Source: Candidatus Roseilinea sp. (GTDB taxonomy: Bacteria; Chloroflexota; Anaerolineae; J036; Brachytrichaceae). From it: 64,000 nt of DNA. Of the stretch, positions 15,773 through 23,172 are shown piece after piece (within the stretch, counting starts at the first letter, position 1; each line of letters starts with the position of its first letter). The stretch is taken from positions 1,090,393 through 1,154,392 of the forward strand of contig BPHV01000001.1 in assembly GCA_026003755.1 (NCBI GenBank). Direction: 5' to 3'. Under the pieces are notes generated by a model. It did no database searches. It saw only the letters and a program-made list of their open reading frames with translations, and was not told where the DNA came from. Position numbers and translations under genes: made by a program.

Positions 15773-17227
15773 GTGGACCGTCGAGAATTCCTAAAGGGAT
15801 GCGCCAGCTTTGCGGCGCTGGCCGCGGTTCGCGGCTTCGGCATCACCAACCTACTGTTCGATCACCAACTGCCCAAGGCGCATGCCGCGCATCCATCATC
15901 GCCCCAGCAACCACCACCGAACAATCGCGACTTGCTGGTGCTGATCTTCGTGCGCGGCGGCCTGGACGGGCTAAACGTGGTAGTACCGTTCAACACCAGC
16001 GAGCGCGATCATCATCGTTACTACACCGTCCTGCGTCCCACGCTCAACGTGCCGCCGCCCAACTCCAGCGAGCCACGGCGGGCCGTCGATCTGAACGGAC
16101 AGTTCGGCCTCCATCCCGACGCTGCGCGTGGGGCCAGCGGCGTCAACGTGCCCAACCCCCATGTCAGCGACAGCGGCGGCCTGTACGCCCTCTTCCAGCG
16201 CGGCGACCTGGCCATCGTACACGCTGCCGGCTCGCCCGACGTCACCGGCTCACACTTTGACTCAGAGCTATACATGGACTTCGGTGGCAAGAGCAACACC
16301 AGCGGCTGGGTGGCGCGTTATTTAGACGCCGTCAGCGAGCCGATAGATGCCCTGGCCGTCGCCCCACAATGGGGCGTGCCGCCTTCCTTGCTCACCACCA
16401 GCGGGCGCAGCGCCCTCGCCATCCCCAGCGCCAGTGAGTTCGGACCACAATGGCGCACCAACACCTGGACGGCCCCCGCGAACCGCCAAGACATCCTCAA
16501 CGGCCAGCGCAGCCTGCTGGAGGCCATGTATCAGCGCGGCAACGCCTTCGTCGAGCGCCTCGGACAGGTCGGGCTCGCCACTTACGACGCGCTGGCCAAC
16601 GTATTACACAGCTCCTACACCCCCGCCGCGCCCTACCTCACCGACAACAGCCTGGTGGCCGACGGCGGCGTGTTTGGCCGCTCGCTGGAGATCATCGCCC
16701 GCATCGCCAAGGCAAACCTGGCTAACCCACTGCGCGTAGCCACAATTGACGTGGGCGGTGGCTACGACACTCACGACAACCAGGGCACAGTGGAATGGTC
16801 GGGCAACGACCGCTTCCCGCGCTTGGTCACCAACCTATCCAACAACCTCAAGGCGTTTTGCGACGACATGAACGCCGATCCCCAATGGCGCGGGCGATAT
16901 GTGATCGTGGTGATCAGCGAATTCGGTCGCGTGCTCTATCAGAACAGCAGCAGCGGCACCGATCATGGCGCAGGCAACATCATGCTGGTGATCGGCAGCG
17001 GCGGCCAATACGGCGCGCCCAACATCAACGCCGGCATCTACGCCGACTGGCCGGGGCTAGCTCACTTCGGCTTCAACGACGGCTTGAAGATCACCACCGA
17101 CTACCGCCGCGTCATCGCCGATGTGCTCACGGCGCGCATGAACGTGAGCCAAAGCCTCATCAACACCACCATCTTCCCTGGCCTGAACTACACCTCTGGC
17201 TTGGGGATCGGCCGTCCGCGCAGCTAA
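15773..17227 (+). CDS. DUF1501 secreted protein (Tat signal)
   Basis: 484 residues starting at GTG. The N-terminus MDRREFLKGCASFAALAAV is a twin-arginine signal (RREFLK). The DUF1501 hallmarks follow: FVRGGLDGLNVVVPF near residue 62, and EFGRVLYQNSSSGTDHG near residue 385 followed by an 'N-ML-IG' strand. DUF1501 proteins belong to the alkaline-phosphatase/sulfatase-like fold group and are exported folded; their substrate is unknown. They are commonly paired with DUF1800 proteins, and a DUF1800 gene lies 2.5 kb downstream, after the BNR gene. The frame is intact. Confidence 0.9.
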   Translation: MDRREFLKGCASFAALAAVRGFGITNLLFDHQLPKAHAAHPSSPQQPPPNNRDLLVLIFVRGGLDGLNVVVPFNTSERDHHRYYTVLRPTLNVPPPNSSEPRRAVDLNGQFGLHPDAARGASGVNVPNPHVSDSGGLYALFQRGDLAIVHAAGSPDVTGSHFDSELYMDFGGKSNTSGWVARYLDAVSEPIDALAVAPQWGVPPSLLTTSGRSALAIPSASEFGPQWRTNTWTAPANRQDILNGQRSLLEAMYQRGNAFVERLGQVGLATYDALANVLHSSYTPAAPYLTDNSLVADGGVFGRSLEIIARIAKANLANPLRVATIDVGGGYDTHDNQGTVEWSGNDRFPRLVTNLSNNLKAFCDDMNADPQWRGRYVIVVISEFGRVLYQNSSSGTDHGAGNIMLVIGSGGQYGAPNINAGIYADWPGLAHFGFNDGLKITTDYRRVIADVLTARMNVSQSLINTTIFPGLNYTSGLGIGRPRS

Positions 17228-17246
17228 GCGATTGGGAGGGAAGAGC

Positions 17247-19767
17247 ATGTGTCGCAGTTTGTCCCATCGCCTCATTCCCATCATCTTCATCTTCGCTGCC
17301 GGCACGCTGTTTGGCGCGCCGGCGCACGCACAAATGCTGCCCCTCAGCCTATGGGACAACTTCCAACCTGTGACGGTGGACACACGCCCGGCCCTGCAAA
17401 GTGAGCCGGCGCTGGCAGCATCGTCCGGTGGCGACGCCTTCGTGGCCTGGTTGGATACGCGTTATGCCCTACCCGACGTGCATGGCGCCTGGATTCAAGA
17501 CGCGAAGTCTCCCTCTGAGGTGCGGGTGGCCCACCTCCGCCCCCATTTCAACGTCCCCGCCCTGCGCACGCCGGCCGTGAGCATGGATGCCAACAACCGC
17601 GCCTTCGTCGCCTGGGCCGACGATCAACGCATTTACCTGGTGCGCAGCATATCCTCATCGGCATGGACCTCGCCCACCGTAGTGGTCAGCTTCAGCAGTT
17701 GGGAACACACCGCGCTGCAGCCGGCTCTGGCCAGCGACGGGACGGGGAACCTGGTCGTCGCATGGACCGACCTCAGCCAAAGCGACAATCACGTGCGCGT
17801 GGGCGACATCTACGCCCGGCGCTGCGACGGCGCCACTACCCCCATTCAGTGCAACAGCAGCCCTGCGCGCGTCAACGACGACAACGGCGCGCGCAATCCC
17901 CAGCGCAAGCCAGCCATTGCCCGCCAGGGCGACACCGTGGTATTGGTGTGGGAAGACGGCCGCGAGCGCGGCCCCGACTTCCCCCGCATCTATGCCAGCT
18001 TTTCATACGATGGCGGCCAGAGTTGGAGCGTGAACATGCGGGTCAATCGCCAATTGGACGGTAGCGCCCCCCGCCCCACCGACAGCGCCACCCACCCCGC
18101 TGTCGCCATCGCCCCCGATGGCAGCGTGTGGGTCGCCTGGGAACACCGCACCGGTTCGCCCACCGCCCAAGCCGACATTTACCTTGCGCGCTGGGATGGA
18201 AGCGCCTGGTCCACACCATGGCGCGTGGACGATGCGCCGCCGCGCGTGCGCAGCCTCGCCCCGAGCCTCGCCGCAGCTAACCAAGCAGTGTTCGTCGCAT
18301 GGCAGGACTATCGCAACGGCCCGAATAATCCCGACATATACCTGGCCCGCCTAGATCGCGCTACAAACCAAGTGCAAGTCGCAGGGATCGCCTTGCCCAG
18401 GCCGCAACGCTCACCACGCCTCACTCGGTTGGCAAACGGACAGCTCTACCTGGTGTGGCAAAGCGAAAAGATCGGCGGCGAAGCGAATGTGTTCGGCATG
18501 CGCGTTGATGGGTCATCGTCGCTGACGTTCAACGACGTACCGCGTCAGCTCAACACCGACGCCCCACGCTTGCCCTACCAAATGACGCCGGCCTTGACGG
18601 TGCACCAGGGCACGCCCTACCTCATGTTTGCCGACCGGCAATACAGCTACATAGATTTCTACCTAGTTAAGCAAGTCAATGGGAGTTGGGCGACGCCCCA
18701 GCCGCTGCCGACACAGGCGCAAGAAGGGATAGCCGTGCATCACGAAGCGGCCAATGTGATCGCTGGTCCCGATGGCAAGCTGCATCTGCTGTGGTCTGAT
18801 GATCACTGGACGCGCGGCCTGCGCGTGCGCTATGCTACCTTTGACCCGCAAACGCAGAGCTGGAGCGAACCGATCTTCCTCTCGCGCGTAATCTCGCGCA
18901 CCGAAATGCTGCCCAGCCTGGCAATCTTCAGCACCACCCTGGCCGCCTCGTGGAGCCGTCGAGACAGCGCCACCGGCCAGCTACAACTCTTCGCAAGCTG
19001 GACAGACGCCGGCGCATGGGTCACCGAGACGGCTGTCCTCACCCAGACTTTCAACGCATGGAACTGGCCAACCAGCGTCGCCACCGATGGCAACAACATC
19101 TACGTCGCTTGGCATCGCGAGGAGCAAAGTAACGGGCGCGGGCGCATATGGCTGGCGCGCAAGCCGCTCGACCCCAGCAGCCCGTGGCAATACGGCCAGA
19201 TCAACCCACCTCATACCGATGATTGGTGCTACCACCGCGAGCCGCGCTTGGCGACGGGACGGGGCCGGACGGCTGCATGCCGCCTGGGTAGGATGCGCAC
19301 GGCGCAACCCCCAGTAGCTCTTGGCCGCGTGATTACTATCTCTACTACGCTCATTCGACCGACCAAGGCGCAACCTGGAGCACACCCCTGCGCGTTGCGC
19401 TCATCTCTAACGATCAGCATCGCGACTCCCGCCCGGCGCTCGCCGTATCGCCCTGCCGGGCGAGTGATGATCGTCTATCCATACTTCGCCACAAGCGAGA
19501 CATCGCAATTTGCCGCTGCCATGATCGAGAACCACACCGTGGTCTTCACCCGCACACTGAGCCATGGGAGCGGTTGGGTGCGCGCCGGAACATACGAAGG
19601 TTCGTACTACGGCGGCGACAGCGCTGGCAGCGTCGCATACGACTCACAATCAAACCGCTTCATCCTGGCCGTCGTTGATCGCAGCAATACCGCGCCGCGC
19701 TTGTGGACGACGAACTTCTGGGTTGGCGCCACCCCGCCGCGCGTTCATTCCCGTCGTCACGCGATAA
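17247..19767 (+). CDS. Secreted BNR/sialidase-like repeat protein (frameshifted)
   Basis: About 840 residues once frames are corrected. It has a signal peptide (HRLIPIIFIFAAGTLFGAPAHA) followed by many BNR-type blades of the form 'VAWxDxR', 'VAWEDGR' and 'YASFSYDGGQSW', indicating a beta-propeller. No sialidase Arg triad or Asp box with clear catalytic residues was identified, so binding is as likely as catalysis. GGAGG lies 7 nt before the ATG. Three +1 insertions (about 19257 in a G run, 19310 in a C run, and 19452) garble residues near 670-730 and then cancel out. A further +1 near 19740 hides the true end FIPVVTR, which resembles the LPLV tail of exported Chloroflexota proteins. Confidence 0.75.
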
Positions 19768-19770
19768 GCC

Positions 19771-21332
19771 ATGATCACGATTCAATTGTCCACCCCACCC
19801 GGCGATCCCCCTACTTTGGCGCGCTTGGCCTGGAACCGGTTGGCCTTTGGGCCACGCCCTGAAGACCTGACCACGCTGAGCAATTTCAACCTCGCCGACT
19901 TCGGTGGATGCACAGCTCAACTACGAAGACATTGACGATAGCGCCTGCGAAAATTACGTCAGCGCGCTATCACGGGCTGCGCCCAACGGCAGCACCGTCC
20001 CCCCGCTCGACGCTACCCTAGCAGAGCTGAAGGCCTACGTGGAGAACAACTCCCTCCCGATATTTGCAGCGCCACCTGTGGGACGGCCACATACGCCCGC
20101 GCCCTGCTGAGCAAGCGTCAGCTCTATGAGCTTATGGTGGACTTTTGGACCAACCACCTGCAGACCAACTTCCAGCACTACGCCAAGTACTGGGGAAGAT
20201 CACTACGTCATCCGCGCCCACGCGCTGGGCAATTTCCGCGACTTGATCGAGGCAAGCGCCAAAAGCCCGTCCATGCTGGATTTCCTGAGCAATCGCTACA
20301 GCGACGGCAACAACCCTAACGAGAACTACGCTCGCGAGCTATTGGAGTTGCATACCGTCGGCAGTTACAGCTACGTGCCGGGGCCGGGCTATCGCACCCA
20401 ACCCCAACTACACCGAGGAAGACGTGCAAGCGCTGGCGCGCATCTTAAGCGGCTGGACCAACTATCGCTCGCCCCAACGACGAGTTTTACTTTAACGCCG
20501 GCCGCAGTTGGCCAAGGCACGATTGGACGGAGAAGCGGCTCTGGCTCGGCAACAACCATTACTTCTACATCCCTCCGGGCGGCATTGAACAAGGCGAGCA
20601 AGTGCTCGACATCCTCGTGGAGCACCCCAGCACGGCGTATTTCATCGCCTTCAAGCTCTGCCGGCGCTTCATCAGCGATTACCCAGACATGTTCTGCCCG
20701 GAGGCCGTGGAAGCCGGCGCGCAAGCGTTCATGCAATCTCACGGCGACATCCGCCAAACCGTGGCGCGCCATCCTCCTGCACCCCAAGTTCGCTCAGAGT
20801 TGGGGGCAAAAGGTCAAGCGCCCCTTCGAGTTCTTCATCAGCACCTTGCGCGCGCTCGGCATCACCGAGATGATCAACTTCCTGCCGGATAACTGGAACG
20901 CGCTGGGGGAAAGGCGCTTCGCGCAAATGAATGAGCTGCTCGGCCAGGACGCTGTTTGAGTTTAGCGCGCCCACCGGTTATCCCGACATCGCCTTGGCGT
21001 GGTGGAACACCGGCCAGGTGTTCGGGCGGTGGACGTTAGCCAACATGCTGGTCAATCGCTACTTTGGTGAACAACTCCATCCGACCAACTCCGCACCGTC
21101 CAACGCGTTGTTGGATTCGCTGCTGGGCTTACCCAAATCGGCTACCGTTGTGGTGGATGATCTCATCGCCCGCTTCATTGGTCGCAACATTCACGCAGAC
21201 GACCGCACAGCACTGATCCAGTATCTCGGCCAGGGCAACGCCAATGCAGATGTGGACAGCACCTCGCCGCGCTTGCGGCCGTTGATCGCAGTGATCGCCG
21301 CTTCACCCCTACGCGCAGTGGCGCCTGATTGA
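19771..21332 (+). CDS. DUF1800 protein (heavily frameshifted)
   Basis: The pieces in all three frames line up as one DUF1800 protein. The opening LARLAWNRLAFGPRPEDL comes first, then KRQLYELMVDFWTNHLQT, then NENYARELLELHTVG, then YTEEDVQALARILSGWT and LLHPKFAQSWGQKVKRPFEF. The end is near SPYAQW. These are the family's conserved blocks in the correct order. At least seven single-base shifts occur; one is clear near 19904, where GG should be G. The ATG follows the BNR stop by 3 bp. I see no selection-driven decay, only sequence noise. DUF1800 partners DUF1501 at the cell surface in many bacteria; function unknown. The exact end is uncertain. Confidence 0.7.
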
Positions 21333-21486
21333 CCCTGCATATCATCCCGCTACGCTGCGGCTGCCCGCCGGGCGCGCAGCGTCTTGCTTGAGCTTGTTGG
21401 CAGGGGGCACCGGTAATTCCCCCAAGCGGCGCACCCACAACCGGGCTTCAAGGGCTTGGATGTCTATTTCGAGCGTAGACAAAACG

Positions 21487-22840
21487 TTAAGGCGTTGTGG
21501 GGGACTGGATGTGGGCTATGTCCGGCTTGCGCGACGCAGGGCCGCGCCGGCCAGGTGGCGCAACGAGACAGCTTCGTGGTCGCGCAGCCGGCCCCAGCAC
21601 GCCGCCGCCGATCAGCACGGGGATCAGGCTGATCGCGAACAGGCCGGCGTAAGGGTTAGACATGCCGGGCGCAAGGGCGGTGAGAATGGCGCCGGCCAGC
21701 AACGGCCCGCTGCCGCCGACAAAGCTGCTCCAGGCGTAGTACACCGACAGATACACTGCGCTGTGTTGGGGCGGCACGGCGGCGTTGAACAGAAAGCGGC
21801 TCCAGCTCATGGACCAGGTTGCTCCCCCGATGCCGGCCACAAACGATATGCCCATTGCAAAGGCCAGGCTGTCGGGGGCATGGCGCGGCACGGCCAGCCA
21901 GCCTAGCGGCAGCGCAAGCAGCGCCGCCAGGCCGATCCACATCAACGGCTTGTTGCCGATGCGATCCAGCGCCCAGCCCACCGGCAGCGCGGCCAGCAAT
22001 GTGCCGGCCGAACTGCCGATGCTGAGCAGCACGACGTTGCCGGGGCTGAGGCCGATCTGCTCGTTGGCGAACAGGGGGATGAATGATCCCGACAACCCGC
22101 TGCCCAGCGTCACCAGCGTGAGCATGCTCATGAAGAAAGATGAAGTTGCGGTCGCCGAGCGCAAGGCGCACCTCGGCCAGATGCGCGCGCAGGTCAACGG
22201 CCTGGCGAGTGGGCTTGCCGCCCGGCAACAGTGAGAAGAGCAGCACGCCGATCAGTCCGCTCACTACCCCGATGCCCATCGGCGTAGTGTAGCGCGCGCT
22301 GCCGGTCAGATGATCGATCAGAAAGCCGGCCCAGCACCACCACACCCCGATCTGCGCCAGCGTGACAATCACATTCTCGAAGGCCATGAACTTGCCGCGA
22401 ATGTCATTCGGCACCAGCTCTTGTGTCCAGGGCAACAAGCCGGTGTCGCCGGTGGCGCGGCACAGCGCAAAACCAACGATGCACAAGGTGACCCAGGCAA
22501 ACGCGGCGTCCGGGCCGGCGGTTGCCAGGATGGCCGGCGCCAGCAGCATCGCGGTGATGATGAACTTGCGAATCGTCCACACGATCAGAAAGGTGCGCCG
22601 AAAGCCCCCACTTCGACACAAAGGGCGCCATGAACGGCGAGAATCAGCGTGGCGTATGGAATCAATGCCAGCGCCACACCGATGCGCGCCTTGTCCCAGC
22701 CCCAGGTCGGCCAGAAAAAGCGGGAATACCGACCCGAACACGGTCAGCGTGGTGAAGACGCTGTTCATGGTCATGGCGGCGATGTAGAAGGGCAACTTGC
22801 GGATTTTTTGCCGGTCGGTCAGGGCAGTCATAGGCATCAT
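21487..22840 (-). CDS. MFS transporter (frameshifted)
   Basis: A 12-helix-type major facilitator protein of about 440 residues once frames are joined. Visible parts include FYIAAMTMNSVFTTLTVFG at the N-terminus, the DTGLLPWTQELVPNDIRGKF loop, and the second-half PVGWALDRIGNKPLMWIGL, which matches the MFS loop motif G-x-x-x-D-R-x-G. At least three shifts are present, near 22.62, 22.69 and 22.136 kb. The last is an AAA that should read AA (22136-22138), restoring IFFMSMLTL. The substrate is unknown. A TATCAT element lies about 18 nt before the ATG at 22840. The C-terminal end (21487, or a shifted stop near 21.51 kb) is uncertain. Confidence 0.7.
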
Positions 22841-23172
22841 GGCGCACAGGCGCGGCCCACATGATACGGCAAAAGATGTCGCCGGCCGTTGTTGGAGCAC
22901 GCACAAGGCGTGCCCCAACGCAGTCCCCAGCATATCGGCCTGGACGGCGCGACAAAGATGGATTACAATGGCTTCTGTCTGTAGAGATTTACGGATCACG
23001 TTCGGTCAGTCAGCAGTCGATCCCGCGCAGCTTCTACGCCCTCGGTTTTCCTCCGCGGCGCTTTTGTGTCAGATCGCGCGATTTGAGCCAAACCGTCCTT
23101 CCATCTCCTACGGGTGAATTCTTGACGCGCTGCGGGGAAAGCCTCGCAGCAAAACGATCACAGGAGGATCGT

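Follow-up and report, generated by a model that had tools for sequence, protein, structure and literature searches.

DUF1501 and DUF1800 proteins (PF07394 and PF08811; COG4102 and COG5267) are common in bacteria, and we know of no function for either family. The original prediction stated that their genes are usually neighbors, and this is what we saw in Chloroflexota, gammaproteobacterial, and planctomycete loci. Where the pair is discussed in PMC5122149, PMC6653060, PMC7563939, PMC6946804, PMC3597751, and PMC4452313, its function is given as unknown. A passage of PMC5122149 also notes a Tat motif in the DUF1501 copies that are adjacent to chitin synthase. In our literature search on both families and on the C-terminal tail described below, neither co-export nor a function for the tail came up. 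The same two families lie together in the window (the whole stretch of 64,000 nucleotides that we analyzed, from a Candidatus Roseilinea genome). But the usual order in the loci that we fetched is DUF1800 then DUF1501, whereas in the window, DUF1501 is followed by a beta-propeller gene and then by DUF1800, and DUF1800 has no signal. We will refer to these three genes as the trio.

Three other described systems resemble the trio in part. In clusters of PSD1 (DUF1553) and DUF1501 in Planctomycetes and Verrucomicrobia, a gene for a Tat-type DUF1501-like protein also lies after a larger partner gene. However, the partner is from another family, we saw no propeller, and the similarity between the DUF1800 and PSD1 profiles (probability 18, E = 0.0013 over 59 columns) is too weak for a claim of homology. 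(One Verrucomicrobia MAG, G618 (L315-L330), has 24 PSD1 places, and by eye, a Tat-type DUF1501-like gene lies directly after PSD1 in about 10 of 15 fetched loci.) Second, according to the passages on E. coli PaoABC in PMC4273604 and on heterodimers in PMC10924467, the Tat system exports folded complexes with a signal on one subunit. In PaoABC, one subunit has the Tat signal and its partners have none, and the pattern in the trio is alike. The differences are that co-export of DUF1501 and DUF1800 is read solely from the distribution of signals, and that the carrier of the signal swaps between lineages. Third, NCBIfam describes a "YLP-box putative sorting motif" (aromatic-L-P-aliphatic-aliphatic-x-R) at the extreme C terminus of exported proteins, which is where the trio has a similar motif. 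The tails in the trio (FIPVVTR, MLPMVRR, and FVPMVRR) are variants that the NCBIfam models (NF050076 and NF053834) miss, so we describe them as YLP-box-like only.

On balance, we lean toward the view that the trio is one exported unit. DUF1501 and DUF1800 would fold together in the cytoplasm, and the complex would cross the membrane on the Tat signal of DUF1501, with DUF1800 as a hitchhiker. The propeller would be exported separately, by Sec, and would meet DUF1501-DUF1800 outside. Its YLP-box-like tail may then retain or sort the assembly at the surface, in place of the lipid anchor that DUF1800 has elsewhere in Chloroflexota. The complex may be an enzyme-like surface module, with the propeller as its docking or substrate-binding part. 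We infer the physical complex, the hitchhiking, and the roles of the tail and the propeller from sequence, and the link to the propeller comes from the operon alone.

The DUF1501 gene is at positions 15773-17227 of the window (+ strand; GTG start, TAA stop) and encodes 484 amino acids. The secreted BNR-like beta-propeller is encoded at 17247-19767 (+ strand; ATG start, TAA stop; about 840 amino acids), as judged from alignment A2, the reading frames, and the comparison to the relative L033. DUF1800 (about 515 amino acids) is encoded from 19771 to about 21330 (21332), also on the + strand and with an ATG start; this extent is based on the two pieces that match PF08811 and on the intact copy in L033. 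The intergenic gaps are 19 bp and 3 bp, and we reproduced from the sequence both the coordinates and the tight spacing of the original prediction. The propeller's true reading frame ends with AFIPVVTR-TAA at 19767. Its YLP-box-like tail (FIPVVTR-stop, 19744-19767, + strand) is the sole match to the tail pattern within the window, and the corrected end that had been proposed for this protein is matched by the intact copy in L033 (AFIPVVTR). Elsewhere in this genome, we found no further copies: there is a single match to DUF1501, and every match to DUF1800 falls in this locus.

In the window, the 3' part of the propeller gene and the DUF1800 gene are frameshifted. Relative to the near-identical L033, there are 14 single-base frame changes across these two regions. 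The same kind of change extends into the intergenic DNA and the next gene, and the preceding 3.4 kb is clean. More broadly, single-base differences from L033 that change the frame are dense at positions 19256-22900, in both coding and non-coding DNA, and the next gene (about 21487-22999) is also broken. By this comparison, 19256-22900 is a poor-quality stretch of the assembly, and the frameshifts are sequence errors. The ratio of dN to dS relative to L033 is low for all three genes (0.12 for DUF1501, 0.27 for the propeller, and 0.09 for DUF1800), which implies that they are under constraint and again that the frame changes are errors. We also considered whether the propeller and DUF1800 are decaying pseudogenes, but we rejected this on the basis of the low dN/dS and the frame changes that reach into non-coding DNA. 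Intact copies of the frameshifted genes exist in relatives.

DUF1800 was present in 28 of the 60 genomes that we searched for it (including this one). In a class-wide search of 396 genomes, again including this one, we found the propeller, either full-length or cut by the end of a contig, in 12 of the 28 genomes of the family and in none of the 368 others. (The next-best match in the class was a partial match to a generic propeller, with E = 4e-46.) The 12 genomes are this one, all eight others of the genus, and G015, G017, and G024. In each genome of the family that has the propeller and a contig that can be checked, the propeller lies between DUF1501 and DUF1800. All three genes are whole in seven relatives (L032, L033, L034, L035, L039, L042, and L046); L038 has all three, with DUF1800 truncated at the contig's end; and L036, L040, and L043 have the propeller and then DUF1800. 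The order is also the same in the public records L093-L097, although just in part for L093 and L094. Two more genomes of the family, G013 and G020, have a trio-type DUF1800 at the end of a contig and no match to the propeller, and a search of viral contigs for relatives found none. The order on which the original prediction depended, with the propeller between the other two genes, is thus kept in the genus and the family, and this conservation among relatives excludes a chance arrangement. Furthermore, except among close relatives, the genes flanking the trio vary between species; since the flanks differ while the order stays, the trio behaves as a unit. The trio's DUF1501s also form a single clade in our tree (100/100). 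Other loci of the same family or class have the usual two-gene form, DUF1800 then DUF1501. Three genomes of the genus that have the trio's propeller also have tandem double pairs (DUF1800-DUF1501-DUF1800-DUF1501; L047, L065, and L066).

We then considered the sequences of the three proteins. The window's DUF1501 matches PF07394 with 54.2 bits (the Pfam gathering cutoff is 27), as do all 14 members of alignment A3, and it aligns at 68-96% to eight trio homologs (alignment A1). The two pieces of DUF1800 match PF08811 with 114.8 and 41.9 bits (cutoff 26.1), as do all 16 members of alignment A4. In alignment A3, a set of acidic and histidine residues is invariant across the DUF1501s (D65, H161, D326, D332, H334, E383, D397, H398, and D443), which would fit a metal-dependent hydrolase. 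The putative clan of DUF1501 is the alkaline phosphatase superfamily (alkaline-phosphatase-like enzymes). A profile-profile comparison of DUF1501 to sulfatases with hhalign was not significant (probability 0.3), and searching PDB by sequence did not find a relative of DUF1501. Structure predictions from five similar rows had mean pLDDT of just 30 for DUF1501 and 40 for DUF1800, which is unusable.

The N terminus of DUF1501 (DRREFLKGCASFAALAAV) is of the Tat type, with 14 bits against TIGR01409 (below the cutoff of 16.7), and the protein lacks the C-terminal tail. The propeller begins with a Sec-type signal (MCRSLSHRLIPIIFIFAAGTLFGAPAHAQ), and the N termini of the trio propellers in relatives are likewise of the Sec type. 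These signals bear out the original prediction that the propeller is exported and that DUF1501 has a Tat signal. The propeller piece from the window has no match in Pfam. Members of the propeller's family do match BNR_2, BNR_4, BNR, and beta-propeller repeat models, as BNR/sialidase-like propellers do; the repeats are visible in alignment A2; and NCBIfam's beta_prop_Msarc matches 10 of 11 members. However, unlike those propellers, the trio's protein, at about 840 amino acids, has no catalytic sialidase assignment, and its matches are below the cutoffs in the member shown (for L033, 27.1 vs. 31.4 bits for BNR_2 and 15.8 vs. 27 bits for BNR). The best match in PDB by sequence is Hz136 (E = 0.0078), followed by two sialidases (E = 0.07), and all of these are weak.

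Next, we examined how each locus might hold its products at the cell surface. DUF1800 has a lipobox in 10 Chloroflexota pairs, and none of those 10 have a tail on DUF1501. Among the 15 pairs without a lipobox, DUF1501 has a tail in 10 by the pattern and in four more by eye (L048-L051); L064 was unreadable. The trio has its tail on the propeller, with no tail on DUF1501 and no lipobox on DUF1800. Each readable Chloroflexota locus has one putative retention device, either a lipobox on DUF1800 or a YLP-like tail, which is then on DUF1501 or on the propeller. That the lipobox and the DUF1501 tail exclude each other, and that the tail is on the propeller in the trio, suggests that the tail and the lipid do the same job. 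A caveat is that this exclusivity involves three deep clades, with six changes of label in the tree, so it reflects two or three evolutionary events and not 24 independent cases.

The shift of the tail from DUF1501 to the propeller also bears on whether the propeller is part of the assembly. The three proteins might merely be co-regulated and act on one extracellular substrate, for instance as a hydrolase, a helper, and a sialidase-like glycosidase or carbohydrate binder, with no complex that includes the propeller. The presence of two sialidases among the weak matches in PDB is consistent with this, as is the glycan context in the part of PMC5122149 that describes DUF1501 and DUF1800 genes beside a bacterial chitin synthase. 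But models of sialidase families gave no match to the propellers over the cutoffs, and the tail is on DUF1501 in one type of locus and on the propeller in another, as though a part of the same assembly had passed to the propeller. We consider mere co-regulation to be rather unlikely.

The pattern of export signals is the main reason to link DUF1501 with DUF1800. In the trio, DUF1501 has a Tat signal (a twin-arginine motif and a weakly hydrophobic region) in 8 of 8 loci, and DUF1800 has no signal in 8 of 8. The DUF1800 gene either overlaps the propeller's stop codon or begins only a few bases away from it, so it is unlikely that we missed a signal. Beyond Chloroflexota, DUF1800 was found in 17 of 114 gammaproteobacterial genomes (the class of G624) and in 88 of 149 planctomycete genomes (the phylum of G617). 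We fetched 25 gammaproteobacterial and 30 planctomycete loci and classified the signals by eye from the N termini. Among 78 assessable DUF1501-DUF1800 loci from three phyla, the signal was on DUF1501 only in 24, on DUF1800 only in 21, on both in 33, and on neither in 0. The corresponding counts for DUF1501 only, DUF1800 only, and both were 18, 8, and 7 for the 33 Chloroflexota pairs; 5, 1, and 9 for the 15 of 25 gammaproteobacterial loci that were assessable; and 1, 12, and 17 (one ambiguous) for all 30 loci from Planctomycetota. (We overruled the script's label for L340 and L347, which have ordinary Sec signals; for L360, whose motif is upstream of the gene's start; and for L298, which has a Sec lipoprotein signal further upstream. 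L354 is ambiguous and was counted as both, and rows with "core not found" were assigned from the N terminus. L294, L296, L297, L299, L304, L306, L309, L310, L311, and L314 were left out of the gammaproteobacterial counts because a partner or an N terminus was missing, broken, or weak; in L296, DUF1501 has no signal and DUF1800 is cut. The one-partner Chloroflexota loci L036, L037, L040, L041, L043, L044, L056, and L069 are outside the 33.)

All 45 of the lone carriers have Tat signals, and all 24 of the Sec-type DUF1800s are paired with a Tat-type DUF1501 (p = 3e-8 by Fisher's test, with no correction for kinship). The two-gene loci of the class include ten with a Tat lipoprotein as DUF1800, and DUF1501 lacks a signal in eight of them. 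Because only one partner has an export signal in many bacteria, DUF1501 and DUF1800 are apparently exported together as a single folded package. That the lone carriers are all Tat, that no locus lacks signals altogether, and that Sec-type DUF1800s always accompany a Tat-type DUF1501 would fit a folded complex with hitchhiking through Tat. Counting against co-export as a general rule, 33 of the 78 loci have both signals, with Sec on DUF1800 in 24 of these, so co-export is not universal. The original prediction was that the Tat signal on DUF1501 implies a folded and cofactor-bearing partner; the Tat signal was found, but the partner need not bear a cofactor, and the data favor co-export of DUF1800. 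Some DUF1501s that lack signals (L346, L348, L349, L358, and L359) have the remnant of a twin-arginine motif with no hydrophobic region. These look like fossils, as if the Tat signal decayed once the partner carried one.

Alternatively, the partner without a signal might stay in the cytoplasm and serve the exported one as a dedicated chaperone or maturation factor, and the propeller might be an independent secreted protein from the same operon. Tat substrates often have dedicated chaperones, and a protein with no signal, such as the trio's DUF1800, is cytoplasmic by default. But the roles swap: in 21 loci, DUF1800 is a Tat protein and DUF1501 has no signal, and in 24 it is the other way around. 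In 33 further loci, both families are exported, and a chaperone is less likely to be outside the cell so often. This explanation seems unlikely to us, and we prefer co-export of DUF1501 and DUF1800 as a folded complex.

Finally, we examined the tail itself. Its consensus in several groups of Chloroflexota is [YF]LP[LIV][VI]xR at the extreme C terminus. Each of the 11 trio propellers whose C terminus could be read ends in some form of hydrophobic-[LIV]-P-hydrophobic-x-x-R. In two of these (FLPVVLNEP in L040 and FLPIVLRDSE in L038), the last arginine pair is replaced by one to three other residues or by none. We searched DNA for [YF]-hydrophobic-P-hydrophobic-hydrophobic-x-R-stop. In nine genomes of the genus, there were 67 matches, compared to nine for a backward control and three for the codon-reversed pattern; another genome of the class (G047) had 74 vs. 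3. With a stricter pattern and 251 genomes from the phylum, there was little or no excess in most, but family f71 (15 genomes) had 148 vs. 8, and some other genera also had a clear excess (16 vs. 2 in G458, 15 vs. 0 in G542, and 9 vs. 0 in G219). In 13 genomes from other phyla, the tail was not enriched (7 vs. 10). Tail counts vary sharply among Chloroflexota families (tail-rich f71, tail-free f27, f81, and f107), and among the genera of a single family too; this contrast could expose the cognate machinery.

The tail is present on 3 of 351 ORFs in an even sample from one relative, and the proteins that have it appear to be exported. Among 40 tail loci that we fetched, 35 have long ORFs, 33 of them with the 5' end. 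Within the first 110 residues, 31 of these 33 show a signal-like stretch that is hydrophobic (the doubtful cases are L272 and L277), compared to a crude background rate of 104/351 with a shorter window. The 29 of 35 tail proteins that were scanned include subtilases, C25 peptidases, beta-helices, RCC1, and other folds. NF050076 or NF053834 match just eight of 29 clear tail proteins even at E up to 10, as well as 0 of 11 trio propellers and 1 of 14 DUF1501s. Two C25 (gingipain-type) peptidases, L253 and L264, bear YLP tails, and two tail proteins, probably the same ones, match NCBIfam's model for the T9SS sortase PorU. We rejected the idea that the tail marks sortase substrates, as there is no membrane span behind it. 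The tail is short and hydrophobic with no span behind it, as the last beta-strand of each protein might be, but it is very unlikely to be only that, because it is preceded by unrelated folds and by linkers of low complexity (L252 and L048), the 29 tail proteins share little else at their C termini (three related pairs), and it is enriched before stop codons relative to two controls and not in the outgroups. By these comparisons, the tail is a real C-terminal signal of exported Chloroflexota proteins, with a putative role in sorting. The original prediction of an FIP/LPLV tail as a possible sorting signal agrees with this, since the tail is C-terminal, is found on exported Chloroflexota proteins, and is listed by NCBIfam as putative.

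What is new here concerns export, namely the reading of the signals as co-export of DUF1501 with DUF1800. More broadly, but only tentatively, DUF1501-DUF1800 could be a widespread heterodimer of Tat carrier and hitchhiker with a modular anchor: the lipid on DUF1800, the tail on DUF1501, or the tail on a Sec-exported propeller. If so, the YLP-box would be a functional substitute for lipidation on folded proteins, and it would act after export by either route. The predicted export of DUF1501 and DUF1800 as one folded complex would be the first handle on both families. The presence of either a lipobox or a tail is a comparative hint at a possible role for the YLP-box, and the trio offers a compact system for testing it.
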